A DNA stretch of 64,000 nucleotides from the NCBI GenBank assembly GCA_026027325.1, contig JAMSLZ010000019.1:478118-542117 (forward strand). Direction: 5' to 3'. The notes under the pieces were generated by a model, which did not search any database, was not told the origin of the DNA, and was given only the letters and a program-made list of their open reading frames with translations. The stretch's first letter is position 1, and each line of letters begins with the position of its first letter. The position numbers and the translations under genes were made by a program. This stretch comes from Actinomucor elegans. Its lineage: Eukaryota; Mucoromycota; Mucoromycetes; Mucorales; Mucoraceae. Of this stretch, positions 14,493 to 63,418 are shown piece by piece.

Positions 14493-14694
14493 GGAGAACA
14501 TGTTTGTGCATTTAAGCATAAAAATTTAACAATTTACATAGATTTCATGAATTATATAAATGTTAGGGTTAATTTTAAAATCACGTGATTGTTAAAATGC
14601 CCCTAAATTTATGAATTTCATTTTTTTCAGCTTTTTTTTAGAATACCAAGACATTTTTAGAAATCACATGATATGATAGCTATAAAACATACTA
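14493..14694 (+). repeat. B-half terminal inverted repeat, inner arm
   Basis: 202 bp beginning GGAGAACATGTTTGTGC, inverted copy of 15510-15711. Contains palindromic ATCACGTGATT. Confidence 0.93.
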
Positions 14695-14816
14695 ATTCAT
14701 TTTACTATCATTATATGTTTAATGGATAGGGATGTATTATATTAAGAGTCTCGTATTTTATTATTAATTAAATAAAAGGATTCAAAAAATTATTTATATT
14801 AAAATATATATTGACT

Positions 14817-15401: not shown

Positions 15402-15509
15402 ATTTATTTTAATGTATGTTTTTCAATTTATGTTAAATAAATTAAAATTGGAAATATAAGAGTAATCTAGTTTTTATACATATATTAATTGGATGACATT
15501 GTTGTTATA

Positions 15510-15711
15510 TAGTATGTTTTATAGCTATCATATCATGTGATTTCTAAAAATGTCTTGGTATTCTAAAAAAAAGCTGAAAAAAATGAAATTCATAAATTTA
15601 GGGGCATTTTAACAATCACGTGATTTTAAAATTAACCCTAACATTTATATAATTCATGAAATCTATGTAAATTGTTAAATTTTTATGCTTAAATGCACAA
15701 ACATGTTCTCC
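15510..15711 (-). repeat. B-half terminal inverted repeat, outer arm
   Basis: Inverted copy of 14493-14694; forms the right end of the AB unit, followed by the ATT duplication. Confidence 0.93.
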
Positions 15712-24424: not shown

Positions 24425-24577
24425 AATGGAAAATATACATGCTATTCATATACCTATGTATCTTTAAAAAATATTCGTAAAATTTATAATCATATATATA
24501 TATATAAAACAAAAAAAAATTACAAAATCTTTTTTATTTTTTAAGTCATGTGACATCATGATACGTATCCCTTAAGT

Positions 24578-25981
24578 TTAAAGGTTATCTAACCCAGCAT
24601 GATATTCATCAATTATTTCTCTATCATTAAATGCGTCTTCCCATATCCAACTATTGTAGCTATCATCATAATTTTTCCATTTAATAAAATATTTTGTTCT
24701 TTTTTTATATTTTCTATGATTTAATATTTTTTCTATTTCATATGAATCATTTTCTATGTATTCTATATTTTCGTCAATTATCATTTCACTTTTATTTAGC
24801 ATATCATTAATAAATGAGTTTTGTTTATTTCTCATATTAATGACTCTACAATATTCAAAAGTTTCAGTAAATGCATCTTCATTATGATTTTTGTTACTTG
24901 GATAATTAAATTTATCTTGTATCCATAATCCATAATAATCTTTAATTGGAATATTTTGAAGCTCAACAAATTTTTGGATGTTACTTAATAATAATGCCAT
25001 TTTTAACTGTAAATTATATATTCTTATATTATCAATTTTAAGAACTTTATTACTATTATCAAATCTTTGGAATTTATCACCTAATCGTCCAAATTTATTT
25101 TCAATGATGCTTCTAAAACTTCCAAAAGTATTATTGAATTCAATTTCATTATCACTTAACTTAATTCCTTTTTTTTTTCTAAATGGAAATATAAAATTAT
25201 CGTTATTGATTTTATCATTTCCATATTTACTACAATTCTCTAAGAAGTCTTCTATAAATAAATTATAACCTCCATCAACTGCTATACAATCATTTTCATT
25301 TAATTTATTTTCTAGTTTCATTGCTAAAAACATTTTACCATCATTATATTTTTTACATGGTAAACTATCTGATACATAAATAGCTATTTCATTAACATCA
25401 ATTATTACTTGGGTTCTAAATCCTGATTTTTTAAATTTATATGAATACATATCTTTACTTTTAATTTTCAAATCTGTATAGTTAACTCTACTATCATGTC
25501 CATCCAAAAGTAAAGTAACATGCTTAAAATGCTCAGGATTAAGTCTATTAGCATAATATATTCTTAATAAAATTGTGCTAAACATATTTTCTAATAGTTT
25601 ATTACATGTTTTATGTAGCTCATTTAAGTTTACATCCCAGAAACTTTTATATATTTCATGAAATGATGAATAGGGTATGTAATCATTCATTTCTCTTATG
25701 CTTTTACCTGTAATTAAGTGATATATTATTAGTAATCCTTTTTCAATATCTCTATATGGAGTTTTATATTTATAATTTACAAATATATTATTTAAAAAGA
25801 AAAATATAGGTATTATGCCTAATTTGTTTTGTAATTCAACCTTAATTTCTTCAATATTTTTTACATCTTTTAGTTCTGTTCTATGTTTATACTCATCTTC
25901 TTTTATTTTCCATTCCTCATCTAAAAAATTCCAGTAACTATGTTTTATTTTATTTAATTCTTCGTATATAAGTTTATCCAT
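24578..25981 (-). CDS. DDE transposase with C-terminal chromodomain (element A, copy 2)
   Basis: Protein identical to that at 12798-14201 (467 aa): D150, D226, E284 and a C-terminal chromodomain. As in copy 1, the last 17 codons lie in the left 206-bp inverted repeat and the ATG just outside the right one. Two intact identical copies in one chromosome end argue that this family is, or was very recently, active. The gene sits about 11.8 kb from copy 1, in an unrelated context (Merlin gene instead of CACTA). Confidence 0.93.
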   Translation of the reverse strand: MDKLIYEELNKIKHSYWNFLDEEWKIKEDEYKHRTELKDVKNIEEIKVELQNKLGIIPIFFFLNNIFVNYKYKTPYRDIEKGLLIIYHLITGKSIREMNDYIPYSSFHEIYKSFWDVNLNELHKTCNKLLENMFSTILLRIYYANRLNPEHFKHVTLLLDGHDSRVNYTDLKIKSKDMYSYKFKKSGFRTQVIIDVNEIAIYVSDSLPCKKYNDGKMFLAMKLENKLNENDCIAVDGGYNLFIEDFLENCSKYGNDKINNDNFIFPFRKKKGIKLSDNEIEFNNTFGSFRSIIENKFGRLGDKFQRFDNSNKVLKIDNIRIYNLQLKMALLLSNIQKFVELQNIPIKDYYGLWIQDKFNYPSNKNHNEDAFTETFEYCRVINMRNKQNSFINDMLNKSEMIIDENIEYIENDSYEIEKILNHRKYKKRTKYFIKWKNYDDSYNSWIWEDAFNDREIIDEYHAGLDNL

Positions 25982-26597
25982 TTTATGTTTTTTATATATG
26001 TTTTTTTCAATTTTTATTTCATTTTAGCATTTAATGATAGAGAAATAATTGATGAATATCATGCTGGGTTAGATAACCTTTAAACTTAAGGGATACGTAT
26101 CATGATGTCACATGACTTAAAAAATAAAAAAGATTTTGTAATTTTTTTTTGTTTTATATATATATATATGATTATAAATTTTACGAATATTTTTTAAAGA
26201 TACATAGGTATATGAATAGCATGTATATTTTCCTTATAATAATAACAGTCAAATTTACTGTAATACTTATTAAGGAGAACATGTTTGTGCATTTAAGCAT
26301 AAAAATTTAACAATTTACATAGATTTCATGAATTATATAAATGTTAGGGTTAATTTTAAAATCACGTGATTGTTAAAATGCCCCTAAATTTATGAATTTC
26401 ATTTTTTTCAGCTTTTTTTTAGAATACCAAGACATTTTTAGAAATCACATGATATGATAGCTATAAAACATACTAATTCATTTTACTATCATTATATGTT
26501 TAATGGATAGGGATGTATTATATTAAGAGTCTCGTATTTTATTATTAATTAAATAAAAGGATTCAAAAAATTATTTATATTAAAATATATATTGACT

Positions 26598-26928
26598 TTA
26601 TTTAATATTTAATTTATTAAATATATTAATAGCATCATCATAATTTATATCCTCATCTTTTATCTCGTTATTTATTTTAATAAAACCTGTTTTAATTGTA
26701 AAATTTATATATATCTTACCATTACTAATATTTATAGATGGTGAAAATAATGATGGATAAATAGAAAAACATTTATTTTTAATATCATCAATACTTAAAT
26801 TTTGATTATTTTCTATATTTTTAAATTTGGATATATTAGTTAATACCAAATACATAATTTTTGTATTTTCTTTTGAATTCGATTCTATTAAAGGATTTAA
26901 TAATTCTACATTCATAATTTTATTTCTT
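26598..26928 (-). pseudogene. Element B protein, C-terminal part (split by C2)
   Basis: C-terminal part (about 109 residues) of the 194-aa B protein, unchanged from copy 1. Starts at RRNKIMNVELLNP; the N-terminal part is at 29275-29525. Removing C2 and one CTA restores the frame. Confidence 0.9.
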
Positions 26929-26931
26929 CTA

Positions 26932-27163
26932 GACGGATATCTACAATTAATATATCTTTTAAATCTATTGTATATGTCCTATTTTTTTTTAATATATCCA
27001 TATATTTTATAATTTATAACTTTTTTTCATGAATTAAAATTATTATTAAGTATAATAAACATTATCAAGAAGGCAACTGTTCCATTTTGCATGAAAAAGC
27101 AATATTATATTTATGCTTTCTCCTAATATACGTACCAAATTTATATGAAACAAGATGTCCGTC
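26932..27163 (+). repeat. C module, left copy (232 bp)
   Basis: Direct repeat of 29040-29271. GACGGATATC ... GATGTCCGTC; includes GAAGGCAACTGTTCCATTTT, a stretch shared with the E modules. Confidence 0.93.
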
Positions 27164-27184
27164 TTCTATAACATTTTAAATTAG

Positions 27185-28657
27185 TTACTTACTATTCCAA
27201 TATATATTAATACAATCAAAACTATTAAATTTACTGTAATGTATCCATGAATTATCCTCATCACTGTAGTTTTGCCATTTCACAAGGTAATAACTATCTT
27301 CGACTATTAACCCTTTATGATCCAAAATAGTTTCAATTTCATAACTTTCATTATTATCTATATCTATTTCCAAGTCCATTTTCTCATTATTATAAATATT
27401 ATTATTTTTAAAATGAGCAATATTTGATAATTCTAATCCTAAAAATTGTTGCTGTAATAATTTCATTTTATCTAAATTGTTTATTCTTTCATTTAACTTT
27501 GGAAGTGATTTATAATTTTCATTATTATTCAAAATATCATTTTTGTATTTAAAATCAAAGCTATCATTAATCCAATATGAATGAAAATCACTATGTTCTA
27601 TATTGTTTAGTTTAATATATTTTTTTAAATTAAAAAGGACACATGCAATTTTTAGTTGAATATTATATATATTTATATTAGTAGTTAAAAAAGGTTTTTT
27701 GTTATTTAATCTTTTAAAGATACATCCCAAATCTGAGAAAGTTTTTTCCATTTTAGACCGAAAACTTCCAAATTGATCGTTATAATTTATTTCAATTTCA
27801 TTTAAGTTTATATTTTTATCTTTTCTGATAGGATATACGAAGTTATAGTCATTTAGATCAGAACTATTTATTATATTATCTACGTATAGGCTATATCCTC
27901 CATCTAATGCAATACAATCCATCAAATTTAGTTTATTTTCAATATTCATATTTATAAGCATAGATCCATCATTATTAGTACTACATGGTTGACTGTCTGA
28001 TACAAATAATACCATACCATTTGTATCTATTGCAACTTGTGTTCTAAACCCATTTTTTTTAAGTTTGTAACTATAATATATGGATTTATCTTCTGCACCA
28101 TATACCATACCTCTTTTATCATGGCCGTCTAAATGTATTGTTACTTGATTAAACAAATCTGGATTCTCTATCATTCCATTTAAAAGTCTAATTTTTATAT
28201 TTGAAAACATGTTTTGTAAAGAAAAACTTAAAATCTTATTTAATTTTAACATTCTATCTGATGAATAAAATTGTCTGTATATTTGATGAAAAGTACTTTT
28301 TGATATATAATCATCCATATCTTCAATTGATATATTCTCTACTATAAAATATAATATCAATAAGCCTTTTTCTATATTATTATATGGTCCTCTATAATCT
28401 CTATCTCCAAATAATATAACTAGGAAGAAATAAACAGGTACTATTCCTAACTTTTCTAATAAAATCTTTTTAATTTCTTTGATCTTTTTAATAGATATAA
28501 TCTTTTTAGTGTGATATTTTTTTTGTTCAATCTCTGGCCAACCATAATTTAAAAATTTCCAATAATCATTTGTTAGAATCTGATACTCCATTAATAAAGT
28601 ATCCTTAACATTATTAATATTATCCATTTGTTCTTTTTTATATTGAGATAAATTCAA
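27185..28657 (-). CDS. DDE transposase with chromodomain (element C, copy 2)
   Basis: Intact 490-aa transposase. D167 in TIHLDGHDKR, D242 in ALDGGYSLYV, E294 in GSFRSKMEKTF. C-terminal chromodomain (SYEIETILDHKG ... YYLVKWQNYSDEDNSWIHYSKF) ends the protein at NIYWNSK. A family relative of A, G and H, closest to the decayed copy in E. The copy at 51577-53049 differs by one conservative change that I saw (Val/Ile at about residue 73). Very AT-rich. The gene stop is 22 bp from the left module. Confidence 0.93.
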   Translation of the reverse strand: MNLSQYKKEQMDNINNVKDTLLMEYQILTNDYWKFLNYGWPEIEQKKYHTKKIISIKKIKEIKKILLEKLGIVPVYFFLVILFGDRDYRGPYNNIEKGLLILYFIVENISIEDMDDYISKSTFHQIYRQFYSSDRMLKLNKILSFSLQNMFSNIKIRLLNGMIENPDLFNQVTIHLDGHDKRGMVYGAEDKSIYYSYKLKKNGFRTQVAIDTNGMVLFVSDSQPCSTNNDGSMLINMNIENKLNLMDCIALDGGYSLYVDNIINSSDLNDYNFVYPIRKDKNINLNEIEINYNDQFGSFRSKMEKTFSDLGCIFKRLNNKKPFLTTNINIYNIQLKIACVLFNLKKYIKLNNIEHSDFHSYWINDSFDFKYKNDILNNNENYKSLPKLNERINNLDKMKLLQQQFLGLELSNIAHFKNNNIYNNEKMDLEIDIDNNESYEIETILDHKGLIVEDSYYLVKWQNYSDEDNSWIHYSKFNSFDCINIYWNSK

Positions 28658-29039
28658 TTTTTTATAACTTAAAATAAAATTAATAATAATATATATACAT
28701 TATTATGTTTTAGAAAACATTTTTTATTTTGAAAAGTTTGAAGTAATTCTAAAATTTATTAATTTTATATTTTGCTTAGTCAGCAAAATTGTAAAATCAA
28801 TTATTTTTTTTGAACTTTTTATTAATAGACAGATTTATAAATATTTTGTGTTACACAAAATATAATAAATCCTAATTGTTTTAAAGAAATAGAAAATATA
28901 AAAAGTTCACAAATTGTGAACATTTTTAATTTTCATGGAATGACAAACAAATTGATAATTTGAAAAGAATTGTAGTGTTAAGCTGATTTTATAATTCAGA
29001 ATTTTATAGCAACAGAAACATTTCTCTATGGTTATAGTA

Positions 29040-29271
29040 GACGGATATCTACAATTAATATATCTTTTAAATCTATTGTATATGTCCTATTTTTTTTTAA
29101 TATATCCATATATTTTATAATTTATAACTTTTTTTCATGAATTAAAATTATTATTAAGTATAATAAACATTATCAAGAAGGCAACTGTTCCATTTTGCAT
29201 GAAAAAGCAATATTATATTTATGCTTTCTCCTAATATACGTACCAAATTTATATGAAACAAGATGTCCGTC
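29040..29271 (+). repeat. C module, right copy (232 bp)
   Basis: Direct repeat of 26932-27163, the outer edge bordered by CTA. Confidence 0.93.
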
Positions 29272-29274
29272 CTA

Positions 29275-29525
29275 CAATACATATTTATTTCATTTATTAA
29301 AACATTTATAAAACTTTCAAAATCAATATGTTCATTACTAGTAATGTCTAAATCTATCTTTATTTTATATGGTTTTTTTTCAATCCATAATTGACTATCT
29401 TCAAATGCAATCTTTGTATCAATTATGAAATTATGACCATTATACAATACATTGTATTTGTCATCCTTAAATTTCTCTATTAAAAAAGCATTTTTATCAT
29501 ATTCTGTTAATGTTATTACAGGCAT
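29275..29525 (-). pseudogene. Element B protein, N-terminal part (split by C2)
   Basis: MPVITLTEYDKNAF to INEINMYC, the first part of the 194-aa protein. The remaining frame of the apparent 123-aa ORF is read-through into C2 and not part of the protein. Confidence 0.9.
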
Positions 29526-29838
29526 ATTTATTTTAATGTATGTTTTTCAATTTATGTTAAATAAATTAAAATTGGAAATATAAGAGTAATCTAGTTTTTA
29601 TACATATATTAATTGGATGACATTGTTGTTATATAGTATGTTTTATAGCTATCATATCATGTGATTTCTAAAAATGTCTTGGTATTCTAAAAAAAAGCTG
29701 AAAAAAATGAAATTCATAAATTTAGGGGCATTTTAACAATCACGTGATTTTAAAATTAACCCTAACATTTATATAATTCATGAAATCTATGTAAATTGTT
29801 AAATTTTTATGCTTAAATGCACAAACATGTTCTCCAAT

Positions 29839-31255: not shown

Positions 31256-32435
31256 GGCAGATTGGAATTGAAAGCCATAGTGTTGATGAAGATATGGTAT
31301 TTAAACCTTCTTCTGCTGACTTAATCAACCAATTATTTCCAACGTGTGATGTTAAGCATCTAATCCAGCAATATCTAGCCGATCATAATGGTTCCAGTTC
31401 AACAGAAGAGGAGTACTCTGTTTCTACTTCTAATACTTAGGAGGTCATACAGATACTCGCAATTGTTGTACAATTACTCGTACAGGTTCTGGGTTAGTGG
31501 ATGACCGGGTGCAATAGAATGTGGTTATACAATATGTCTCCGGCATTCCAAATATTTCTAGCCGTTTTAAAAATTGGAAATAGCCATTTAAATGGGTACA
31601 CATATCCAGAGAACATCACAGCAGCCAAAAATATGCCCATGAGTAAATACCTAAGGTCATCCACTAACCCAGAACCTGTACGAGTAATTGTACAACAATT
31701 GCGAGTATCTGTATGACCTCCTTACGGTAAAGCGAGGAATGGCCAAACTGTTGATATTTCTTCAAGAAAACAAAGCCAAAAGATAGATCGTCTCTTTCGC
31801 GTAAAGTTATATGTTGAAAAAAAAGCAGGTTAATAAGTTTCTAAATAACATTTTAATGATACTAGGATTTGCTTACCTCTTACTACGGAACTTTGTCGCA
31901 AAAGTATGATTTTAAGGTATCATTATCCTATCCTCCGAACAAAGATGTTCGAACAAAAATGAGAACCTATGGTGAGAACAATCGCCAAACACACCATATT
32001 TCAGCCAGGGCAATGAAACAGATTATCACTGACCGCTTTATTGGTATATGTCGAGGTTGCATAAAAAAGCTAAGGATCTGGGAGAAGACGATGAAGTTGT
32101 TATTGATTCCGTTAGCGAAGCCTATGCCAAAAGAAACAGGTGCAATTCCCGTACTCAATTGGTAAAGTAGCAGTGATAGTAATGTTGAGGTTATTCATCT
32201 TTTGTTGGTATAGAAATTGGGCCATAGAGTAGATATGTACTCTCAGAACAAAGAGCATTTCGAAAAAGAATATGGTAAACAGTTCCCAGTCTTTTTGGTT
32301 GCTGGAATGATGTCTGAAGAGGAAAGCGATGTAGACATGGAAGGCCAACAAGTGCTGATTCGTAAACGACCTCAGTACAGAAGCGCAAAAGTAAGTATAT
32401 GCGTGCTTTTCCTTATTTTCATTGACTCCTTAGTG
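31256..32435 (+). pseudogene. Unknown spliced gene fragment, interrupted by a G-type module
   Basis: Coding-like, higher-GC DNA that I do not recognise. The first exon reads RQIGIESHSVDEDMVFKPSS onward to SVSTSNT, is broken by the 282-bp module at 31440-31721, and continues in frame with YGKARNGQTVDISSRK to a GKxA-like end near 31830 when one TTA is removed. A second coding stretch at 31870-32165 (LTSYYGTLSQKYDFKVSLSY, HHISARAMKQIITDRF) changes frame near 32040. A third at 32215-32393 has EYGKQFPVFLVAGMMSEEES and VLIRKRPQYRS. Its left end is cut by an LTR tail and its right end by an inverted LTR. Probably a repeated fungal subtelomeric gene. Confidence 0.5.
31440..31721 (+). mobile_element. 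Solo G module (282-bp MITE)
   Basis: Terminal inverted repeats of 67 bp beginning GGAGGTCATACAGATACTCG; TTA on both sides (31437-31439, 31722-31724). Same sequence and orientation as the right module of composite G. It holds a spurious 71-aa frame. Confidence 0.93.
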
Positions 32436-34995: not shown

Positions 34996-35306
34996 TTTGA
35001 GGGATATCTTTTTTTATATGAATTTAATATATATATTAGTAGAAAACATAAATATAATGTTGTTTTTTCATGCATAATGGAACAGTTGCCTTCTTGATAA
35101 TGTTTATTATACAGAATAATCATTTTAATTTATAAAAAAGGTTATAAAGATATAAAAACTATGGATATATTAAAAAGTTTAAATATATATAGAAAAGATA
35201 AAAATGATGTAATGTCTGTATATATCCGTCTACTATAATAATAATAACAGATTATTACTAATTTTTTTCTCTAATATACAAAAATTGAATTTTCTAACTA
35301 ATAAAA

Positions 35307-36478
35307 ATGGAAACTATTAATATTAAATATAATTTACTAAGAGAATATCAAACTTTAACAAATGAATATTGGAAATTTTTAAATTATGGTTTGCCAATTA
35401 TTAATCAAAAAAAAATATCATACAAAAAGGCCAATTCCTATTAATAAAATCAAGGAAATTAAAAAGGTTTTATTTGAGAAGTTGGGAATTATACCAGTTT
35501 ATTTCTTTTTAGTTACATTGTTTGGTGATGGAAACTATAGAGGATATAGTTTATATGTGGAGCCAATAATAAATAATTCAGAATTAAATGATTTTAACTT
35601 TGTATATCTTATTAGAAAAGATAAAAATATAAATTTAGATGATGTTGAATTAAATTATAATGATCAATTTGGTAGTTTTAGATCAAAAATGGAGAAAGTT
35701 TTTTCTGATATTGGATTCATATTTCAGAGATTAAATAATAAAAAATCATTTTTAACATCTAATATAAATATATAATATACAATTAAAAATTGCATCTGTA
35801 CTTCTAAATATTAAAAGATATGTAAAATGGACATGTTTATGTAACATTATAAATCATGTGATTTATAATTGTGTAACCAAACATTAATTGTTTTAAATAG
35901 AAAATAATAAAAATATAAAACACTTTTTAAAAAGTGTTCTAAATTGTTTTAAGAAGAAAATATAAATTATTAAAAAATGTTGACATGAATGGCAACTTTT
36001 TAATTTTTATTATTTTCAAATGACAAACAATTTGATAATATTTTTTATATTTTCAGAAAGACAAACAATTAAATAATATAGAACATTACAGTTTTCAATC
36101 AAATTGGATGAATGATAACTTTGATTTCGAATATAAAAATAATTTAACTAGTAATATAGATAGCTATAGTGCACCTCCAAAATTAAATGATAGAATAAAT
36201 AATTTAGATAAAATGAAATTGTTACAACATCAATTTTTAGGATTACAATTATCAAATGTTATAAATGATTTAATAATAATATGGATTTAGAGATAGTTGT
36301 AAATGATGATGAAAATATTTATGAGATTGATATTATTTTAGATCATAAAGGATTAGTAGTTGAAGATAGTTTTTATCTCATAAAATGGAAAAATTACGAT
36401 AATAGTGAAAATTCTTGGATACATTATACTAAATTTAATACTTTTGAATGTATTAATGCTTATTGGAACAGTAAATAA
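35307..36478 (+). pseudogene. Chromodomain DDE transposase of element E (deleted, frameshifted)
   Basis: Relative of the element C protein. It starts with METINIKYNLLREYQ, frameshifts at an A8 run near 35415, then an internal deletion joins GDGNYRG directly to YSLYVEPI, so the regions of the first and second catalytic Asp are gone. FGSFRSKMEKVF keeps the Glu. A second frameshift and about 240 bp of non-matching DNA precede 36108. The C-terminal chromodomain (IYEIDIILDHKGLVVEDSF ... WKNYDNSENSWIHYTKF) is intact. Modules flanking this dead gene are still well preserved. Confidence 0.9.
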
Positions 36479-36537
36479 GTAATATTTTCGGAATAAATAT
36501 CAATGTTGAAAAAAATATTACAATATTAAATACAACT

Positions 36538-36840
36538 TTATTTAAAATCCCATATTTCTTTAATACTAATATAACCTTTTCTGAGAAACCATGATTTGAA
36601 ATATGTTTTTCTAATTTCTTCTGTACTTTTCAATGTTGTTTTTATAACTAAATTTGCATGTACATTTGTATTATTATCACAAAAATCATAAAATGGACCA
36701 CTATATAAAATATCTTCAATATTCTTAATGTTTTTAATCCAAAATAATATTTTCTTGCTTAAAATTTCAAATTTTTTTCCATTAACGTCTTTTTTTTCAG
36801 GATCGAGTGTCAATACAACAGCGTAATAATGATATGTCAT
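36538..36840 (-). CDS. Small ORF of element E, possible Rep-like (HUH) protein
   Basis: 100 aa from the internal ATG at 36840 (MTYHYYAVVLTLDPEKKD); the 17 codons upstream in the longer frame look non-coding. I do not recognise it with confidence. The order of features, an N-terminal AVVLTL strand, a helical middle, then NVHANLVIKT followed by a W..GYI segment, recalls rolling-circle Rep endonucleases. Those carry H-hydrophobic-H where this has HAN. Lacking one His, it would be inactive, or the resemblance is chance. Convergent with the dead transposase; ends 60 bp from its stop. Confidence 0.45.
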   Translation of the reverse strand: MTYHYYAVVLTLDPEKKDVNGKKFEILSKKILFWIKNIKNIEDILYSGPFYDFCDNNTNVHANLVIKTTLKSTEEIRKTYFKSWFLRKGYISIKEIWDFK

Positions 36841-37241
36841 TGTAAAAAGATTAAATGTTTTTTTTTGTAAATATATAATAGAATATGTCAATATTTATAT
36901 TTTTTTTACAAGATATTTTTAGAAATACCAAGAAATTTATTTTTGTAATGTTCATGTGATTATTTTTAATTAATATAACAACTTTGTATTCCCTATGCCC
37001 TATAGAAGAGGGATATCTTTTTTTATATGAATTTAATATATATATTAGTAGAAAACATAAATATAATGTTGTTTTTTCATGCATAATGGAACAGTTGCCT
37101 TCTTGATAATGTTTATTATACAGAATAATCATTTTAATTTATAAAAAGGTTATAAAGATATAAAAACTATGGATATATTAAAAAGTTTAAATATATATAG
37201 AAAAGATAAAAATGATGTAATGTCTGTATATATCCGTCTTT

Positions 37242-46229: not shown

Positions 46230-46950
46230 GAGCCATTTTTCCTTTCTCTTTTTACTGTATTATATTGTTTATTTAAACATCTTTTTTATCTATTATGTCT
46301 AAACGTGCCTCCTCGTCTCGCGTACCTTCAACCCAAGCGTCGTTGAGACGTTTCTTTCGTCCTGTTCAAGTTGCTCAACAACAACCTGCTAGTAATGGTA
46401 ATAGTATGCTTGCGTGTTATGGTGTTATCATCCGAATACACTTCTTATTTTTTTTATTAGATGTTACTACAATGGTGGAGGTTGACCAAGGTGAGTCGGT
46501 TTCGTTACGATGTAAGTTTAAGTGTAGTATGCGCAAAGGGCTACGAGTGTTGTGATGCATGGGGTTATATGCATTGCATTAGTATGGGGTTTGCGCATAT
46601 GGGATTGTGCCTATAGGGTTATTCGTATGGGATGCTAACTATAAACCTCAGCTGCTGTCGTTACGACCTACAAGAAACGTCGTATTATTAGAAAGGATGA
46701 AAGTAGCAGCTCAGATGAAGATGCATCTCCTGTTAAGCATGAAGGTTTGCTTTTTTATTCTTATTATTGGTTACGTGTTATTAAACTATAAATATAGAAT
46801 CTCAGTTGGTAGATGCTGCTTCGCCTCTTGCTCCTCTAGTTAGTTCGAACTCTGAGCAAGAACGCCCATTGCGTGAGTTTGGTAAGATCTGCATGTTTTA
46901 TTTTCATACTGTATATCTAGTACTCATACTCAAAATTAGGTTCCAGCAAT

Positions 46951-47232
46951 GGAGGTCATACAGATACTCGCAATTGTTGTACAATTACTCGTACAGGTTC
47001 TGGGTTAGTGGATGACCTTAGGTATTTACTCATGGGCATATTTTTGGCTGCTGTGATGTTCTCTGGATATGTGTACCCATTTAAATGGCTATTTCCAATT
47101 TTTAAAACGGCTAGAAATATTTGGAATGCCGGGGACATATTGTATAACCACATTCTATTGCACCCGGTCATCCACTAACCCAGAACCTGTACGAGTAATT
47201 GTACAACAATTGCGAGTATCTGTATGACCTCC
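46951..47232 (-). repeat. G module, left copy (282 bp)
   Basis: GGAGGTCATACAGATACTCG ... GTATGACCTCC, with 67-bp inverted ends; centre inverted relative to the right copy and to the solo copy at 31440. Confidence 0.93.
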
Positions 47233-47374
47233 TAGTGGGATATCTCACCACACACTGGTAGACATACGTTCCATAGCAAGGTAGTAGAGAGGGGGGGGGG
47301 CCAAAAGGGATGATCTTGTCCAGAGACCTGAATAGTTTCAGCCCCCCTGGGAATGGAAACTAAGGAGCCTAAGG
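47233..47374 (+). repeat. G core inverted repeat, left arm
   Basis: TAGTGGGATATCTCACCACA to GGAGCCTAAGG, inverted at 50688-50830; arms differ in the length of a G/C run. Confidence 0.92.
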
Positions 47375-47453
47375 CTACACTGTAGGACTGGGAGTGAACA
47401 ACAGCATTTGGTAGCATACAACTCCTATTATACTACAGCATTCTTAAATAAAC

Positions 47454-48863
47454 ATGTTTCCGAAAGAAATAGTAGATGCGTTTACGTTGCTTATGGCGAC
47501 TTACTGGCAGTTTCTTTCTAAAGATTGGCCAGTGTTGGAAAAGACTAAGTATCACCGGTCTGAGGTTAAGCCTGTAAAAGATATCCAGCATGTAAAAACT
47601 TATGTGTTGGAGCATCTTGGCTACATACCTGTTTTTTTCTTTCTCGTAGAGCTGTTTGCAAACCAAGAATATCCTGGTCCATATTCCAACGTGGACAAAG
47701 GATTGTTGATAATCTACCAGCTTCTTACCGGTTGTTCTATTGCGCATATGGCACGTTTCATCCCTTCTAGTAGCTACCATGCTATTTACAATGCCTTTTA
47801 TACAAAATACGGAGAGGAGCTGAATACCTGTTTGGACTATTGCCTACGAAAGATGTTCTCCTCAACAAAGCTGCGAATTATGTGTGCTCTTCACCGAAAC
47901 CCTGAAGATTTTAAGCATGTTACCTTGATGATAGATGGACATGATTCTAGAGCAACATATATCAACGCTGCAGATCATGCCATGTTCTATTCGTATAAGC
48001 TTAAGAAGTCTGGCTTCCGAACACAAGTATGTACAGATGTTAATGGGATGGTGTTGTTTGTCTCCGATGCGGCACCATGTTCAGATAACAACGATGGGTC
48101 TATGCTTGCTGATATGCGGTTGAAGAAGAAGATTAGTAAGTACGATTGTGTTGTCGTTGATGGTGGATACACTACTTTTATAGATCGTATTGTAGCAAAT
48201 AATCGTCACCTGGATCGCCATAATTTTGTATTCCCTATCCGTAAGTCTCGAGGAGTGGGTCTGAAACAAGAAGAAGTTAATTACAACTCCATTCTTGGAA
48301 GCTTTCGTTCCTCGATAGAAGCAACGTTTGGAGAGATTGGAACCTTATTTCAACGATTCAACGGTAAAGGCGTTATTCGAGTTACCGAGATGGAGACATT
48401 CACGGTACAGTTCAAGCTTGCATGTCTTCTTGCAAACATCAAGAAGTTTGTTAACATTGGGTGTGTTTCTAGCTCTGAACAACATACTTTTTGGATGCAG
48501 CCTAACTTCGACTTCCCAAATGGCAGCAGTAAGAATGTCTATGACGTAGTAAGTACCCTTACAATTGCGGAAAAGTCCCAAGATGCTGAGATGGTAAAAG
48601 AAATACAGCAGCAGTTTCTCTCTTTGGGGGTGAACGAAGATAATGGCTCTGATGACGAACCCATCGACGAGGACTTACCACAAGGACACTACGAGGTTGA
48701 GGCCATTGTTGGGCATCGTGGACCAAAGCATCGTAGAGAGTATTTGGTTAGGTGGGTAGGCTATGATGAGAGTAGCAATAGTTGGCTTTCTCCTAACAAC
48801 TTCGACGACTCTGATATTATTATCGAGTATGAGAAAGACGTTAGAAGAAGGCGGAAGAAGTAG
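47454..48863 (+). CDS. DDE transposase with chromodomain (element G)
   Basis: Intact 469-aa transposase. D161 in TLMIDGHDSR, D236 in VVVDGGYTTF and E289 in GSFRSSIEATFG make the DDE triad; GFRTQVCTDVNGMVLFVSD is the family's core strand. Residues ~413-463 are a chromodomain (HYEVEAIVGHRGPKHRREYL, VRWVGYDESSNSWLSPNNFDD), followed by a basic tail RRRRKK. Balanced codon use, unlike the AT-rich relatives, which shows that the family exists in a host-like composition. Lies 98 bp upstream of the second gene in the same orientation, inside the core repeats. Confidence 0.94.
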   Translation: MFPKEIVDAFTLLMATYWQFLSKDWPVLEKTKYHRSEVKPVKDIQHVKTYVLEHLGYIPVFFFLVELFANQEYPGPYSNVDKGLLIIYQLLTGCSIAHMARFIPSSSYHAIYNAFYTKYGEELNTCLDYCLRKMFSSTKLRIMCALHRNPEDFKHVTLMIDGHDSRATYINAADHAMFYSYKLKKSGFRTQVCTDVNGMVLFVSDAAPCSDNNDGSMLADMRLKKKISKYDCVVVDGGYTTFIDRIVANNRHLDRHNFVFPIRKSRGVGLKQEEVNYNSILGSFRSSIEATFGEIGTLFQRFNGKGVIRVTEMETFTVQFKLACLLANIKKFVNIGCVSSSEQHTFWMQPNFDFPNGSSKNVYDVVSTLTIAEKSQDAEMVKEIQQQFLSLGVNEDNGSDDEPIDEDLPQGHYEVEAIVGHRGPKHRREYLVRWVGYDESSNSWLSPNNFDDSDIIIEYEKDVRRRRKK

Positions 48864-48960
48864 GTTCCACAAGGGGATGTTTTTTAAAACTTGTTAAAAT
48901 ATATGGAATATTTAAGCCTTTTAAAGCACATGGTAGCATATTCTAAGCATATACTACACA

Positions 48961-50631
48961 ATGCCCCTTAGTAAAATCTTTATAGATTACAACCAATACC
49001 TTAGTAATATCTATGGTGTCGATTACACTTGTGGTAGCGCGACGAGAGAACGTATGGGCTGGGATTATGTTAGCGCAGTATTCTGCGACAGCATTGTCTT
49101 CTGGTGTGCTGTACATTGGGAACAAGAGAAGCTAAGTTCTGCTGTAGGAATGTACATGAGCATTCTTCGGCTTCTTCTATCCCGTCACCTACAAGTGGAG
49201 CAGTTCAAGCTCTTTTACACTGGTAGGGGTAAATGGCATGCTGGTGAAGATAAACTTGTCAACGACATCCAACAAAGGGAGGCAAAAGAATCAGGTATTA
49301 GCTGGGATAAATACCAGCCAGGCTATATATCGCTGAGAGTTTCGTTTGAGAATATCAGCTATGGGGAACTGTGGCCAAAGCTTAAGAAGATATGCTGTAA
49401 GGTTGCAAAGAATTATATCCTTTTACATGACTTGGATATAAGCATCGACTGCGCCTACATATCAACACGCGATATTATTAAGGAGTACATTACTTCTAAT
49501 GGCGTAGAAGATAAAGATATTGTCAACGATCGTCACTCAGTCGGTGATAACTGCTTATCATGGAGGCAGCATGATAGTTCTAGTGCTAAGATACCCTTAC
49601 GAATAAAGATCTATAACAAGTTTGTCCAAATGCTTGAAAGCCGTGAATTAAGGTCTTTAATCGGCTCCCAATTGCACCACTTGGTTTCTAACCCTGACAA
49701 AGATTTTCAAGAGCGCCTTAATAAGTATCGTGGTAATGGTATGACCAGAATAGAAATTACGTTTTATAACACCCAACTCAAGAAGGAAAGCTATTATACC
49801 AAAACTATGTCTAGGGTCCTTGAGTTCCTTGATAATTGTCCAACATACAAGGTCAGCTTCGACAGACAATGGAAGCAACTAGCTAAGAACCTTACGCAAA
49901 TGGCAGCTATATATGTTCCCAAAACAAAGACTTTCGCTTACTGCCATTGGTGGAACTCCCTTACCAAGCGAATGCAAGGCATAATTCATACAAAAGTACC
50001 AGAAGAGTACGTAATGCTCCATCTTGCAAACTTTAGCTTTAACGATAGGCCCATCCACTATCTGGTAGTTAAGTTTGAGAAGAATAGTCATGAATATAAG
50101 ATACTCGAAGACAGCATATATCGTCGTGAAGAAGGATGTTCTGCCATCACGTTGGTTCCAGGGATATCTAACTCCTTAACACCCTATAGAAAGAATTTAA
50201 CCAACAAAGCAGCTTCTTTTGGTGATTTAGGGATTTGTTCTTTCCGCAACATCACCCTCGAATGGCCAAAAAGTAGACTGCGACCTGAAAGAGGAGATAA
50301 ACTTGCGACCATCAGGTTGGCCAAGGAGACACATGATGATAAACTATTACAGCATCTAGATCCCTTCCCAGTGTCTGGAGCTAAACCAGATTATTCTTTC
50401 ATGAAAGTAGGTGTGAAGTACCAAGTAACCGGATATGGTTATGGTACATTCCGAAGTAAGAACTATCTCCACTTACGGCTGTCCAATGGTACCTCAGTCC
50501 GTTGCAGTCCAGGTTTAAAACAAGTTGTAGAGAAGCAACTAGAGAAGCATACCTTGTTCTATGTTTGTCTAATTCGAGTAAAGAAAGTACGTGGTGTTCG
50601 TGATGTAGAATGCGAGATCACCAACGTATGA
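48961..50631 (+). CDS. Element G second protein, 556 aa, possible Rep-like initiator
   Basis: Intact ORF (MPLSKIFIDYNQYLSNIYGV). No certain family. Three spaced segments resemble the Rep_trans (pT181-type rolling-circle initiator) pattern: LHDLDISIDCAYISTRD near residue 160, RIKIYNKFVQMLES near 220, and TRIEITFYN near 265. The C-terminal ~90 residues (KVGVKYQVTGYGYGTFRS ... EITNV) look like a small OB-like beta domain. If right, it may nick or bind DNA during movement. The similarity is by eye and weak. It is conserved as an open frame in a unit with a live-looking transposase, so it is likely a functional cargo or helper. Confidence 0.7.
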   Translation: MPLSKIFIDYNQYLSNIYGVDYTCGSATRERMGWDYVSAVFCDSIVFWCAVHWEQEKLSSAVGMYMSILRLLLSRHLQVEQFKLFYTGRGKWHAGEDKLVNDIQQREAKESGISWDKYQPGYISLRVSFENISYGELWPKLKKICCKVAKNYILLHDLDISIDCAYISTRDIIKEYITSNGVEDKDIVNDRHSVGDNCLSWRQHDSSSAKIPLRIKIYNKFVQMLESRELRSLIGSQLHHLVSNPDKDFQERLNKYRGNGMTRIEITFYNTQLKKESYYTKTMSRVLEFLDNCPTYKVSFDRQWKQLAKNLTQMAAIYVPKTKTFAYCHWWNSLTKRMQGIIHTKVPEEYVMLHLANFSFNDRPIHYLVVKFEKNSHEYKILEDSIYRREEGCSAITLVPGISNSLTPYRKNLTNKAASFGDLGICSFRNITLEWPKSRLRPERGDKLATIRLAKETHDDKLLQHLDPFPVSGAKPDYSFMKVGVKYQVTGYGYGTFRSKNYLHLRLSNGTSVRCSPGLKQVVEKQLEKHTLFYVCLIRVKKVRGVRDVECEITNV

Positions 50632-50687
50632 GTACTTGTTTTTTAAAAGCTTCGCCCAACTGTCAACACATGTTACTCGTACTACAA

Positions 50688-50830
50688 CCTTAGGCTCCTT
50701 AGTTTCCATTCCCAGGGGGGCTGAAACTATTCAGGTCTCTGGACAAGATCATCCCTTTTGGCCCCCCCCCCCTCTCTACTACCTTGCTATGGAACGTATG
50801 TCTACCAGTGTGTGGTGAGATATCCCACTA
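50688..50830 (-). repeat. G core inverted repeat, right arm
   Basis: Inverted copy of 47233-47374, ending GAGATATCCCACTA at the right module. Confidence 0.92.
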
Positions 50831-51112
50831 GGAGGTCATACAGATACTCGCAATTGTTGTACAATTACTCGTACAGGTTCTGGGTTAGTGGATGACCGGG
50901 TGCAATAGAATGTGGTTATACAATATGTCCCCGGCATTCCAAATATTTCTAGCCGTTTTAAAAATTGGAAATAGCCATTTAAATGGGTACACATATCCAG
51001 AGAACATCACAGCAGCCAAAAATATGCCCATGAGTAAATACCTAAGGTCATCCACTAACCCAGAACCTGTACGAGTAATTGTACAACAATTGCGAGTATC
51101 TGTATGACCTCC
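50831..51112 (+). repeat. G module, right copy (282 bp)
   Basis: Same orientation as the solo copy at 31440-31721; outer edge followed by AAT. Confidence 0.93.
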
Positions 51113-51323
51113 AATGCAACTGGCAATCCCTCTTTGAATTTCAGCACTAATAGCTTCAACCAAGAAGCTGCTATTAACCAGCCTTCTTATTCGCTTTCTC
51201 CTTGTTGTAGCGATGTTATCCCTATGGAAACAAGTCAAGATGGTAAGTTTTATTCATTCAATAAGCCGTCACACTTTTTCACTTATATTTCATGTAACAT
51301 TAATAGGTAATTCATTTGACCAA

Positions 51324-51555
51324 GACGGATATCTACAATTAATATATCTTTTAAATCTATTGTATATGTCCTATTTTTTTTTAATATATCCATATATTTT
51401 ATAATTTATAACTTTTTTTCATGAATTAAAATTATTATTAAGTATAATAAACATTATCAAGAAGGCAACTGTTCCATTTTGCATGAAAAAGCAATATTAT
51501 ATTTATGCTTTCTCCTAATATACGTACCAAATTTATATGAAACAAGATGTCCGTC
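51324..51555 (+). repeat. C module, left copy (232 bp)
   Basis: Direct repeat of 53432-53663; GACGGATATC ... GATGTCCGTC. Confidence 0.93.
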
Positions 51556-51576
51556 TTCTATAACATTTTAAATTAG

Positions 51577-53049
51577 TTACTTACTATTCCAATATATATT
51601 AATACAATCAAAACTATTAAATTTACTGTAATGTATCCATGAATTATCCTCATCACTGTAGTTTTGCCATTTCACAAGGTAATAACTATCTTCGACTATT
51701 AACCCTTTATGATCCAAAATAGTTTCAATTTCATAACTTTCATTATTATCTATATCTATTTCCAAGTCCATTTTCTCATTATTATAAATATTATTATTTT
51801 TAAAATGAGCAATATTTGATAATTCTAATCCTAAAAATTGTTGCTGTAATAATTTCATTTTATCTAAATTGTTTATTCTTTCATTTAACTTTGGAAGTGA
51901 TTTATAATTTTCATTATTATTCAAAATATCATTTTTGTATTTAAAATCAAAGCTATCATTAATCCAATATGAATGAAAATCACTATGTTCTATATTGTTT
52001 AGTTTAATATATTTTTTTAAATTAAAAAGGACACATGCAATTTTTAGTTGAATATTATATATATTTATATTAGTAGTTAAAAAAGGTTTTTTGTTATTTA
52101 ATCTTTTAAAGATACATCCCAAATCTGAGAAAGTTTTTTCCATTTTAGACCGAAAACTTCCAAATTGATCGTTATAATTTATTTCAATTTCATTTAAGTT
52201 TATATTTTTATCTTTTCTGATAGGATATACGAAGTTATAGTCATTTAGATCAGAACTATTTATTATATTATCTACGTATAGGCTATATCCTCCATCTAAT
52301 GCAATACAATCCATCAAATTTAGTTTATTTTCAATATTCATATTTATAAGCATAGATCCATCATTATTAGTACTACATGGTTGACTGTCTGATACAAATA
52401 ATACCATACCATTTGTATCTATTGCAACTTGTGTTCTAAACCCATTTTTTTTAAGTTTGTAACTATAATATATGGATTTATCTTCTGCACCATATACCAT
52501 ACCTCTTTTATCATGGCCGTCTAAATGTATTGTTACTTGATTAAACAAATCTGGATTCTCTATCATTCCATTTAAAAGTCTAATTTTTATATTTGAAAAC
52601 ATGTTTTGTAAAGAAAAACTTAAAATCTTATTTAATTTTAACATTCTATCTGATGAATAAAATTGTCTGTATATTTGATGAAAAGTACTTTTTGATATAT
52701 AATCATCCATATCTTCAATTGATATATTCTCTACTATAAAATATAATATCAATAAGCCTTTTTCTATATTATTATATGGTCCTCTATAATCTCTATCTCC
52801 AAATAATATAACTAGGAAGAAATAAACAGGTATTATTCCTAACTTTTCTAATAAAATCTTTTTAATTTCTTTGATCTTTTTAATAGATATAATCTTTTTA
52901 GTGTGATATTTTTTTTGTTCAATCTCTGGCCAACCATAATTTAAAAATTTCCAATAATCATTTGTTAGAATCTGATACTCCATTAATAAAGTATCCTTAA
53001 CATTATTAATATTATCCATTTGTTCTTTTTTATATTGAGATAAATTCAA
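51577..53049 (-). CDS. DDE transposase with chromodomain (element C, copy 3)
   Basis: Intact 490-aa protein, same as 27185-28657 apart from one Ile/Val change near residue 73. D167, D242, E294 and a C-terminal chromodomain ending NIYWNSK. The two copies sit in different hosts (the B ORF, and gene 1), each with its own target duplication, so each reflects a separate insertion. AT-rich against the higher-GC exon around it. Confidence 0.93.
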   Translation of the reverse strand: MNLSQYKKEQMDNINNVKDTLLMEYQILTNDYWKFLNYGWPEIEQKKYHTKKIISIKKIKEIKKILLEKLGIIPVYFFLVILFGDRDYRGPYNNIEKGLLILYFIVENISIEDMDDYISKSTFHQIYRQFYSSDRMLKLNKILSFSLQNMFSNIKIRLLNGMIENPDLFNQVTIHLDGHDKRGMVYGAEDKSIYYSYKLKKNGFRTQVAIDTNGMVLFVSDSQPCSTNNDGSMLINMNIENKLNLMDCIALDGGYSLYVDNIINSSDLNDYNFVYPIRKDKNINLNEIEINYNDQFGSFRSKMEKTFSDLGCIFKRLNNKKPFLTTNINIYNIQLKIACVLFNLKKYIKLNNIEHSDFHSYWINDSFDFKYKNDILNNNENYKSLPKLNERINNLDKMKLLQQQFLGLELSNIAHFKNNNIYNNEKMDLEIDIDNNESYEIETILDHKGLIVEDSYYLVKWQNYSDEDNSWIHYSKFNSFDCINIYWNSK

Positions 53050-53431
53050 TTTTTTATAACTTAAAATAAAATTAATAATAATATATATACATTATTATGT
53101 TTTAGAAAACATTTTTTATTTTGAAAAGTTTGAAGTAATTCTAAAATTTATTAATTTTATATTTTGCTTAGTCAGCAAAATTGTAAAATCAATTATTTTT
53201 TTTGAACTTTTTATTAATAGACAGATTTATAAATATTTTGTGTTACACAAAATATAATAAATCCTAATTGTTTTAAAGAAATAGAAAATATAAAAAGTTC
53301 ACAAATTGTGAACATTTTTAATTTTCATGGAATGACAAACAAATTGATAATTTGAAAAGAATTGTAGTGTTAAGCTGATTTTATAATTCAGAATTTTATA
53401 GCAACAGAAACATTTCTCTATGGTTATAGTA

Positions 53432-53663
53432 GACGGATATCTACAATTAATATATCTTTTAAATCTATTGTATATGTCCTATTTTTTTTTAATATATCCA
53501 TATATTTTATAATTTATAACTTTTTTTCATGAATTAAAATTATTATTAAGTATAATAAACATTATCAAGAAGGCAACTGTTCCATTTTGCATGAAAAAGC
53601 AATATTATATTTATGCTTTCTCCTAATATACGTACCAAATTTATATGAAACAAGATGTCCGTC
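53432..53663 (+). repeat. C module, right copy (232 bp)
   Basis: Direct repeat of 51324-51555; preceded by the core end GGTTATAGTA. Confidence 0.93.
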
Positions 53664-56147: not shown

Positions 56148-56367
56148 GAGTTACGTTTATATATAAATAATTTTTTTATTAATATCATTATTCTTATTTA
56201 TTTTAAATAAATTATATTTTTTGGGATTAACGATTTTGTTGAGATTTTAAAACATATTAAAAAAAAACGTTATGATTCATTTTATTCTTTATCAACAATT
56301 TATTATATTTTTCTGTTACTTTATATCTTGTGTTGTGTTTAATTTTTGTATAGCTAAAACGTATCTC
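56148..56367 (+). repeat. H module, left copy (220 bp)
   Basis: Direct repeat of 58027-58246; no difference noticed. Confidence 0.93.
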
Positions 56368-56433
56368 TAATAATAATTGAAGAAGAATGAAGTAAAAGTC
56401 AGGACTTTAATATTAGATAAATAATGATAGTTA

Positions 56434-57891
56434 TTACATGCTTATATCCATATCTACTTCTAAATCTTTATTATATTCATTTAATATAGTTTTATCATCA
56501 AAATCATACTCTTTTACCCATGAATTATATAATTTTTTATATCCTTTCCATTTTACAAAATACTCCTTTACACCATTTTTATCTAATCTATGTGATATTA
56601 TATATTGAACTTCATAATGCTTTTCTTTATCTATAATATCTTGAGTTAAAGAATTTTTTTCTTCAATAGATATATTTTTACAAGTTATAATAGAATTTAA
56701 TAAATCATGTTGATAATCTTTCATTAAATTTATATCTGCCATTTTGTATTCCAACTTTATTAAATCTTCTTTTATATTATTATTACTAGGATAATCAAAA
56801 CTATCTTTTAACCATAAAGAATGTTTATATAATGGATTTAATCCACTTAATTCTGCAAACTTTTTAATATTTAATAATGCACAAGCTAATTTTAATTGTA
56901 TATTATATGTTTCTAATTTAGTCACTCTAACATTATTTTTAGCATCGAATCTTTTAAATACTTTTCCTAAACTTGCAAAATAGGTTTCTATTCTAGATCT
57001 AAATCCTCCAATATAATTATTAAAATTTGTCTCTTCATCTGTTAAATCTATTTTTTTCTGCTTTTCAATAGGAAATGTAAAATTGTTAATTTTTATATCC
57101 AAGTTTCTCAAAGAATACTTTTCAATAGTCTCATTTAGTGTATTTTTATATAAACCGTCAAAACATATATTATCATATAAAGTAAAAAATTTATTAAATT
57201 GTACATTGTTTATAAGCATTTTGTCATCATTATTATTTTTACATGGTAAACTATCTGATATAAATACTGCTATATCATTAATATCTATTACAAATTGTGT
57301 ATTCAATCCTGGTTTTTTTAACTTCCAAGAATATAAATCTTTTCTATCAAAATCTACATTTTCATATATTATTTTATTATGGTGACCATCCATTAATAAA
57401 GTTACATGTTTCATCATTTCTGGATTATTTATATATGAATTCAATAACCTAATTCTTTTATTTGTGCAGTAGTTATATAATATGTTATTAACCCAATTAT
57501 TCAATTCATCATACTTTTTGATATATAAATATTTGTAAATTCTGAAAAAATTAGAATGAGGTAAATAAGTCTCCATTTGATTAATAGATATCCCATTTAA
57601 TAAATGTTCTAGTATTATCAAAGCTTTATCAATGTTTCTATATGGCCCTGGTAAATCAAAGTTATTACAAAAATCTGTTAAAAATAAAAATGTTGGAATA
57701 ATCCCAATCTTATCCTCTATATTTTTTTTAACTTTCTCTATATGTTTAATCTCTTGTAATTCTGTTCTGTGGTATTTTTTTTCTATAGGTCTATATTCGT
57801 TTTCTAAAAATTTCCATTTTGATTTAATCAAGGTTTCATATTCTATCTGTAATTTATTTTGTAATAATATTTTTTCATCTCCATTTATCAT
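56434..57891 (-). CDS. DDE transposase with chromodomain (element H)
   Basis: Intact 485-aa transposase. D168 in TLLMDGHHNK, D245 in ICFDGLYKN and E302 in GGFRSRIETYF. The second motif is DGLY rather than DGGY, a mark shared with element D. C-terminal chromodomain: HYEVQYIISHRLDKNGVKEY, FVKWKGYKKLYNSWVKEYDFDD. Ends in an acidic tail. Very AT-rich. Both modules and the gene look undamaged, so H could be autonomous. Its insertion breaks exon 5 of unknown gene 2. Confidence 0.94.
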   Translation of the reverse strand: MINGDEKILLQNKLQIEYETLIKSKWKFLENEYRPIEKKYHRTELQEIKHIEKVKKNIEDKIGIIPTFLFLTDFCNNFDLPGPYRNIDKALIILEHLLNGISINQMETYLPHSNFFRIYKYLYIKKYDELNNWVNNILYNYCTNKRIRLLNSYINNPEMMKHVTLLMDGHHNKIIYENVDFDRKDLYSWKLKKPGLNTQFVIDINDIAVFISDSLPCKNNNDDKMLINNVQFNKFFTLYDNICFDGLYKNTLNETIEKYSLRNLDIKINNFTFPIEKQKKIDLTDEETNFNNYIGGFRSRIETYFASLGKVFKRFDAKNNVRVTKLETYNIQLKLACALLNIKKFAELSGLNPLYKHSLWLKDSFDYPSNNNIKEDLIKLEYKMADINLMKDYQHDLLNSIITCKNISIEEKNSLTQDIIDKEKHYEVQYIISHRLDKNGVKEYFVKWKGYKKLYNSWVKEYDFDDKTILNEYNKDLEVDMDISM

Positions 57892-58026
57892 ATCACAAAA
57901 TATCTTTCTTGGATCTTTTTTTTATATATCAAAAATTCAATTTTTTTCTTTAAATAATCATCTGAGTTTCAAATTATAGCAGATAAAATTGTCTGCAACG
58001 CCATTGTGTGTAATAATAATTTCTTA

Positions 58027-58246
58027 GAGTTACGTTTATATATAAATAATTTTTTTATTAATATCATTATTCTTATTTATTTTAAATAAATTATATTTTT
58101 TGGGATTAACGATTTTGTTGAGATTTTAAAACATATTAAAAAAAAACGTTATGATTCATTTTATTCTTTATCAACAATTTATTATATTTTTCTGTTACTT
58201 TATATCTTGTGTTGTGTTTAATTTTTGTATAGCTAAAACGTATCTC
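58027..58246 (+). repeat. H module, right copy (220 bp)
   Basis: Direct repeat of 56148-56367; outer edge followed by TCT and then the gene 2 exon in frame. Confidence 0.93.
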
Positions 58247-63016: not shown

Positions 63017-63418
63017 GAGCTACATTACATATCATTAATAATTAATATATATATTATAATTATTTTCATATTATTAAATTAAAATTATATAGCTTTCTTT
63101 ATTTATCAAGTTGTAAGTTGCTAAAAAACTTACGGCGTGCTTTTTAATCAATTTTAAAAGAAAAAAATTGTCGCACAACAGGGTTTCGATCTGGTGTGAA
63201 ATATTATGAAAAAAAAAAGTTTAATTGTATTGAAAAGTAATATAAAAGTTTAATCTTTATAAGTTTTGCATAATTATTGCAATTTCTTATTTTTACGTTA
63301 ATTACCAAACTTTCAAAAATTACAATAAAAAAGTGTTAAACAAAAAAAAATATAATTACAAAAAACACTATTTAATTTAAAAACTAATTTTTATTTTTTT
63401 TTATTTTTAACGTTGCTC
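63017..63418 (-). mobile_element. Solo D module (402-bp MITE)
   Basis: Inverted relative to the D modules at 583 and 2620, with a few differences (for example CGCCGTAAG for CGTCGTAAG in the module's sense). Flanked by AAG (63014-63016, 63419-63421). Sits about 500 bp from the telomere. Confidence 0.94.

Follow-up and report, generated by a model that had tools for sequence, protein, structure and literature searches.

Probable compound DNA transposons of a PIF/Harbinger-like type in the fungus Actinomucor elegans

DNA transposons of the PIF/Harbinger superfamily encode a DDE_Tnp_4-type transposase and a second, Myb/SANT-like protein, and they duplicate 3 base pairs (bp) of target sequence, classically TWA. 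In bacteria, composite transposons flanked by insertion sequences (IS) and cassettes flanked by miniature inverted-repeat transposable elements (MITEs) are built of modules that are mobile alone and together, in either orientation, and foldback elements such as FB-NOF and Galileo place a core between long, inverted, repetitive ends. The closest described plan is that of KolobokP, found in seven animal phyla, in which a region encoding a Kolobok transposase and a His-Me nuclease lies between long terminal direct repeats that have short inverted ends of their own (Kojima and Bao, 2022; PMC9587614). Solo repeats with duplications and multimers sharing a repeat are reported, one-module relics show module excision, and the authors liken the element to bacterial composite transposons, whose end modules carry the transposase (PMC9587614). 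Here we describe elements of comparable plan in a 64,000-nucleotide stretch of the Mucoromycota fungus Actinomucor elegans (GenBank assembly GCA_026027325.1, contig JAMSLZ010000019.1, positions 478118-542117; hereafter the window), beginning with a unit that we call G. The window is the end of its contig and reaches TTAGGG repeats; the genome comprises 36.5 Mb in 27 contigs.

Units of module, core and module

Positions 46951-51112 of the window form a single 4162-bp mobile unit, G, consisting of a module, a core and a second module (Table 1). The core ends are a second inverted pair, 142 bp long and unlike the module arms in sequence. At the inner junctions the left module abuts TAGTGGGATATC and the right module follows GATATCCCACTA; a 430-bp inverted match (46946-47374 and 50688-51117) spans module and core end, and the AAT duplication of this copy stands only outside the whole unit. 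A sequence-only reading of the window had described G in these terms, with 282-bp modules, 67-bp and 142-bp inverted ends and AAT outside only, and had reported direct modules of 402 bp in unit D, 232 bp in C and E and 220 bp in H; all of this was borne out. The same plan recurs in six families besides G, namely D, E/C, F, H, a family termed 493-aa (amino acids) and I+J.

The G family was surveyed across the whole genome by matching a 29-base loop pattern with up to three mismatches. Of the 57 modules found, 40 lie in 20 units plus one foldback derivative, and 17 stand beside no scored core end; 16 of these 17 were inspected and all proved solo, the remaining one being C21:2323794. The 17 solos represent 13 distinct loci (C21:2323794 counted as one), with one group of four and one pair sharing flanks, as duplicated chromosome ends would. 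Forty of 42 candidate core ends were scored and every one adjoins a module: 38 modules are whole, one (in L014) lacks its outer 22 bp, and one (in L020) is interrupted by a nested 493-aa-family unit. We rejected the idea that the L020 unit is truncated, since its right module is merely split. Cores are long in 12 of the 20 units; the other eight, in the 2.4-kb form of the unit, are short and without the second open reading frame (ORF2), the stretch between two TTTTTTAAAA repeats being absent. Unit L015 has the order module-core-module-core-module, with the middle module shared and unlike outer flanks (TAA and ACT), which fits ectopic recombination; by eye, its right flank matches a ~280-bp element inserted in L019. 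The foldback derivative (L031, 783-1693) joins two left core halves head to head between two modules and has its own ATA duplication.

In family D, 20 full units were present among the 40 scored of 148 candidates, and 19 of them were fetched or lie in the window. Modules were listed with their strand and full units matched end to end, and no inspected unit was lost through orientation; all 19 have direct modules and 17 have a matching duplication. Module starts with up to two mismatches number 91, of which 55 lie outside any 2.0-kb pair and four of those in full or partial units, giving about 51 unpaired modules against the 20 full units. Duplications flank 12 of 13 solos, mostly high-scoring ones, and each of the 19 core left ends found lies within a full unit. 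One further D copy (C21:3591723-3593186, judged from its search match alone) is without its left module and is broken within the core, part of which is missing.

The remaining direct families behave alike where inspected. For E/C, 18 full units occur among the 40 scored of 85 candidates; all eight tested are direct and carry a duplication, as do 10 of 11 solos (all those listed). Both F units seen are direct with a duplication, and the one in the window holds no open reading frame (ORF) of at least 150 aa. H has at least three full units, and the one tested is direct with a TCT duplication. The 493-aa family contributed three units, of which two have a 3-bp duplication and the third one of 4 bp, together with two duplication-flanked solos. 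Among the direct families, solos were seen in D, E and the 493-aa family, where they were sought.

I+J is built of two unlike gene-bearing modules, and its transposase lies in module I, whereas in the other families it lies in the core. All 31 candidates were scored and yielded 14 units and no solo I or J; ten units read I-spacer-J and four have both loops flipped relative to the spacer. Each of the 13 units tested has an outer duplication and exposes one GGAAAATATAC and one GGAGAACATG end. The J ORF matched no Pfam His-Me nuclease family and has one listed relative, 99% identical. The I+J units of the window were absent from the family list of the earlier reading.

Insertion, orientation and shared variants

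Across all families, 59 of 64 tested units have a matching outer 3-bp duplication, as do 33 of 38 tested distinct solos, with 2.4% expected to match by chance given the base composition of the window; the unit tally excludes the two G units L014 and L020. The units without matching 3 bp are D L051, D L058, G L041, the G L015 dimer and, with a duplication of 4 bp (TATT), the 493-aa unit in L028. Outer duplications include GGT, CGG, CCT, TGA and CTG and do not follow a TWA preference.

For seven nested inserts (six whole units, one solo) a reference copy without the insert exists, and in every case deleting the insert and one duplication (3 bp in six, 4 bp in one) restores that reference. Two are in the window: the C unit present in I+J copy 2 is missing from copy 1 (CTA), and a Merlin-like element lacks I+J copy 2 (AAT). 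Elsewhere in the genome, F, E and 493-aa units and a solo 493-aa module sit in G cores, and a 493-aa unit sits in I+J. These sites show that whole compound units insert as one piece; in the solo case, the solo or its unit did so. With one short duplication per insert, module and core therefore now move together. Further, inner junctions are constant between loci while outer duplications differ, so modules and cores were not inserted separately at each locus, and solo modules begin and end where the modules of units do. Among the 40 scored G core ends and the 19 D core left ends there was no core lacking modules. The sequence-only reading had named lone cores with duplications of their own and separate insertion as the outcomes that would refute it; neither was seen, and the whole unit as mobile entity is supported.

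Beside the modules, the cores of all seven families start with TW and end with WA, although outer duplications are unrestricted. The ends are TAG/TAG in G, TTA/TTA in D, TTC/TAC in E, TAA/TAA in H, TAC/TTC in F, TTA/TTA in the I+J spacer and TTA/TTG in the 493-aa family, whose core and module ends were read by eye.

Module orientation follows the likeness of the ends. In G the two ends of a module are the same, whereas in D, E, F, H and the 493-aa family they differ, and all 33 inspected units of these five families are direct (D 19, E 8, 493-aa 3, F 2, H 1). In G, by contrast, the orientation of the modules does not depend on the core. Relative to the gene, eight of the 20 units are +-, six ++, five -- and one -+ (L020 being judged from 71 bp of its split module); nine of 20 are inverted, versus none of 33 in the unlike-end families (Fisher P = 4e-5, copies treated as independent). 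A transposase that pairs one end of each type would be the simplest account of these patterns.

Variants are shared within units. D splits into two subfamilies (10 and 9 units) distinguished by four module sites, four core sites and an indel, and left and right modules agree at the four diagnostic module sites in all 19 units (one gapped at one site). The G unit of the window and L022 each have their own substitution in both modules, seen in none of the 48 further full-length modules in the comparison. Such a pattern would be expected from gene conversion inside a unit.

Other variants are confined to solos. Solo-only D haplotypes occur in nine of 13 solos and in none of 19 units (38 modules; P = 3e-5), and unrelated sites share them (CGGG at 4 loci, TAAA at 3). 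The E variant A100 is present in six of 11 solos, with a nested subset of three, versus none of eight units (16 modules; P = 0.02). In G, T69C marks eight of 17 solos (four of 13 distinct loci) versus none of the 40 modules in units and the foldback derivative (4/13 against 0/21, P = 0.02). These distributions suggest that solos likely spread on their own. The link between MITEs and their source, which the sequence-only reading had thought the plan might explain, is well supported because duplication-flanked solos have the same sequences as modules.

Explanations weighed

We consider it probable, at roughly 80%, that the elements are compound transposons from a PIF/Harbinger-like lineage whose transposase uses the module ends, so that either a lone module or a two-module stretch is mobile. 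The transposase would cut where modules end and, since every module has a full pair of ends to itself, a lone module and the stretch bounded by two modules could both move, as with IS-flanked composites. One left-type and one right-type end would have to pair; modules with unlike ends would thus lie direct (D, E, F, H, 493-aa), G modules either way, and I+J would expose one I and one J end. The modules of a unit may be kept alike by gene conversion between them, and recombination between the 67-bp arms may flip G modules. A broader version, in which the compound plan is ancestral and normal in a Mucoromycota chromodomain Harbinger-like clade, the end-pairing rule sets orientation, modules evolve in concert and are repeatedly released as MITEs, and I+J is an obligate pair joined by 40 bp, is tentative, and we would put it somewhat short of an even chance.

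Several observations weigh against the main reading, in which lone modules and whole units can both move. No clean one-module unit turned up in the G and D searches; with lone cores missing as well, modules must rarely leave a unit or else get restored. A matching 3-bp duplication is missing in five of the 64 tested units and in five of the 38 tested solos. Of four possible loop orientations I+J shows just two (10 and 4 units), a pattern not expected from independent flipping, and because copies are related, the P values overstate their independence. The D haplotypes confined to solos combine those of the two unit subfamilies, so that extinct units are a possible source, and in the direct families a solo can also come from recombination between the two modules of a unit. 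Alternatively, only full units may transpose, solos being left by recombination between modules, as solo long terminal repeats (LTRs) are. In agreement with that idea, the searches of G and D gave neither lone cores nor units cleanly stripped of one module, solos keep their duplications, and solo I or J, beyond the reach of recombination, are lacking; it could operate in G too, where 11 of the 20 units are direct. Set against it are solo-only variants that recur at unrelated sites (the two D haplotypes, E A100 at six, G T69C at four distinct loci) and the excess of unpaired D modules (~51) over full units (20), and we judge it an unlikely though substantial alternative.

The elements might instead be ordinary Harbingers whose terminal inverted repeats are long or elaborate, the MITEs being deletion derivatives of those ends. 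This could account for the 424-bp inverted repeat that makes up the whole end of the window G unit, and the foldback derivative L031 shows that such rearrangements occur. Yet D, E, F, H and the 493-aa family have terminal repeats in direct orientation, G module orientation is independent of the core, and solos share module boundaries with units, leaving this explanation very improbable; plain long inverted repeats we reject on the five direct families. Least credible of all is chance clustering, in which MITEs inserted independently on either side of a transposase gene at each locus: the region is indeed dense in nested elements, but inner junctions are constant, each unit has a single outer duplication and empty sites lack the whole unit. 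The fixed junctions and empty sites lead us to reject separate insertion of modules and cores for the copies examined, while the first unit may have originated that way. One possible, if doubtful, history is that two modules inserted at TWA targets around an ancestral transposase gene and that the inner TW and WA are relics of the duplications; core ends begin with TW in all seven families, but present targets are not restricted to TWA, and the inner bases may have been retained because they serve a function.

A composite plan has arisen or persisted here in a second eukaryotic transposon superfamily and in another kingdom, and may on that account be a general design of DNA transposons rather than an animal oddity. 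Near-exact sequence ties the MITE families to their source, and the differing orientation habits of the natural variants lay end pairing by the transposase open to direct test. Direct modules and their solos could also be misannotated as LTR retrotransposons and solo LTRs.

Relationships and neighbouring elements

The architecture is a variant of a known plan, given the KolobokP precedent, and the view that no eukaryotic DNA transposon family built this way had been described does not stand (PMC9587614). Its direct repeats with inverted ends are matched by D, E, F, H and the 493-aa family and in part by G, in which nine of 20 units are inverted. The transposase of KolobokP is of Kolobok type, whereas ORF1 here combines PF13359 (DDE_Tnp_4) and PF00385 (Chromo), and no counterpart of its His-Me nuclease gene was matched in ORF2 with 31 relatives or in the J ORF. 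Also unlike KolobokP are the free orientation of G modules, the unlike gene-bearing modules of I+J and the lack of clean one-module relics in G and D. A literature search on the name KolobokP found Kojima and Bao (2022) only. Titles and abstract openings on composite or terminal-direct-repeat DNA transposons, fungal chromodomain Harbinger and Mucor Harbinger, in a literature set with little coverage of subscription journals, mention no compound Harbinger element. New here are the compound plan in a PIF/Harbinger-like superfamily and in a Mucoromycota fungus, the orientation freedom in G, the pair of unlike gene-bearing modules, the matched variants within units and the solo-only variants.

The DDE_Tnp_4 transposase and 3-bp target duplication are those of PIF/Harbinger; compound ends, the absence of strict TWA targeting and the chromodomain are not, and no Myb-like partner came to light, ORF2 having no Pfam match. 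As in IS-flanked composites, insertions that bear duplications of their own occur both as whole units and as single modules. The label "bacterial-style" given to them earlier holds for the composite plan but not for the location of the transposase, which in bacteria is encoded by the end modules and here by the core, except for module I of I+J; moreover, bacterial composites are occasional assemblies, whereas here the whole unit recurs at many sites. FB-NOF and Galileo differ in that the modules here are discrete, short and, in five of seven families, direct. Solo modules are MITE-like, being short, with inverted ends, a duplication and many copies (17 in G, ~51 unpaired in D).

Six of the transposases were compared and are 32-50% identical. 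In a FastTree tree, midpoint-rooted, read without support values and including 69 relatives chosen by length, G, E and a group of I+J, H, D and 493-aa fall in three places among relatives from other sources. With transposases so divergent and scattered, the compound plan is either ancestral or arose several times. Among 120 listed ORF1 relatives, most of them without an organism name, the named ones are from Rhizomucor, Cunninghamella, Lobosporangium, Apophysomyces, Mortierella, Lichtheimia and their kin; IMG/VR viral contigs scanned with the transposase alignment gave 11 pattern matches and no relatives. ORF2 has 107 relatives at E<=0.001, some from named Mucoromycota, with conserved blocks that include YNKFVQMLES and TRIELT. 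Together with 31 relatives it matched no Pfam family, His-Me nucleases included, and a sequence-profile search of the PDB gave no match at E<=1. An impression that ORF2 resembles a rolling-circle Rep protein was not borne out by any search.

Table 1. Positions of compound units, modules, genes and target duplications in the window.
Feature	Position	Strand	Basis or remark
AAT target duplication, left of G unit	46948..46950	.	sequence
G left module, 282 bp	46951..47232	+	perfect 67-bp inverted ends
G core	47233..50830	+	142-bp inverted ends; starts TAGTGGGATATC
ORF1, 469 aa, DDE_Tnp_4 + chromodomain transposase	47454..48863	+	PF13359 E=1e-11, PF00385 E=5e-10
ORF2, 556 aa, no Pfam match	48961..50631	+	named Mucoromycota among relatives
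G right module, 282 bp	50831..51112	-	inverted copy of left module
AAT target duplication, right of G unit	51113..51115	.	sequence
Solo G module	31440..31721	-	TTA duplication
D unit	583..3021	+	direct 402-bp modules 583-984 and 2620-3021; TTA duplication
Solo D module	63017..63418	-	AAG duplication
C unit	26932..29271	+	direct 232-bp modules 26932-27163 and 29040-29271; CTA duplication; empty site 15148-15150
E unit	51324..53663	+	direct 232-bp modules 51324-51555 and 53432-53663; CAA duplication
F unit	34999..37238	+	direct modules of ~232 bp; TTT duplication
H unit	56148..58246	+	direct 220-bp modules; TCT duplication
I+J unit, copy 1	12648..15711	+	ATT duplication
Module I of copy 1, 1805 bp	12648-14452		~207-bp arms
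Transposase within module I, copy 1	12798-14201	-	
I+J spacer, 40 bp	14453-14492		
Module J of copy 1, 1219 bp	14493-15711		202-bp arms
194-aa ORF in module J	14817-15401	-	
I+J unit, copy 2	24428..29835	+	AAT duplication; nested C unit inside; empty site 62636-62638 in Merlin-like element 60763-62848

Merlin-like elements occupy 60763-62848, which contains DDE_Tnp_IS1595 in 61836-62846, as well as 22553-24427 plus 29836-30048, and 42083-43227. An inverted pair of 364-371 bp, 98-99% alike and 15 kb apart (16975-17345 and 32427-32797), has by eye no obvious 3-bp duplication; also by eye, the old G solo L110, elsewhere in the genome, sits in sequence matching this pair. The ORFs at 9218-10102 and 40324-41199 belong to Transposase_21 (tnp2, CACTA-like) and lie in inverted blocks ~70-73% alike, and 33345-34008 consists of tandem repeats of 98 and 110 bp whose units contain CTAGGG.

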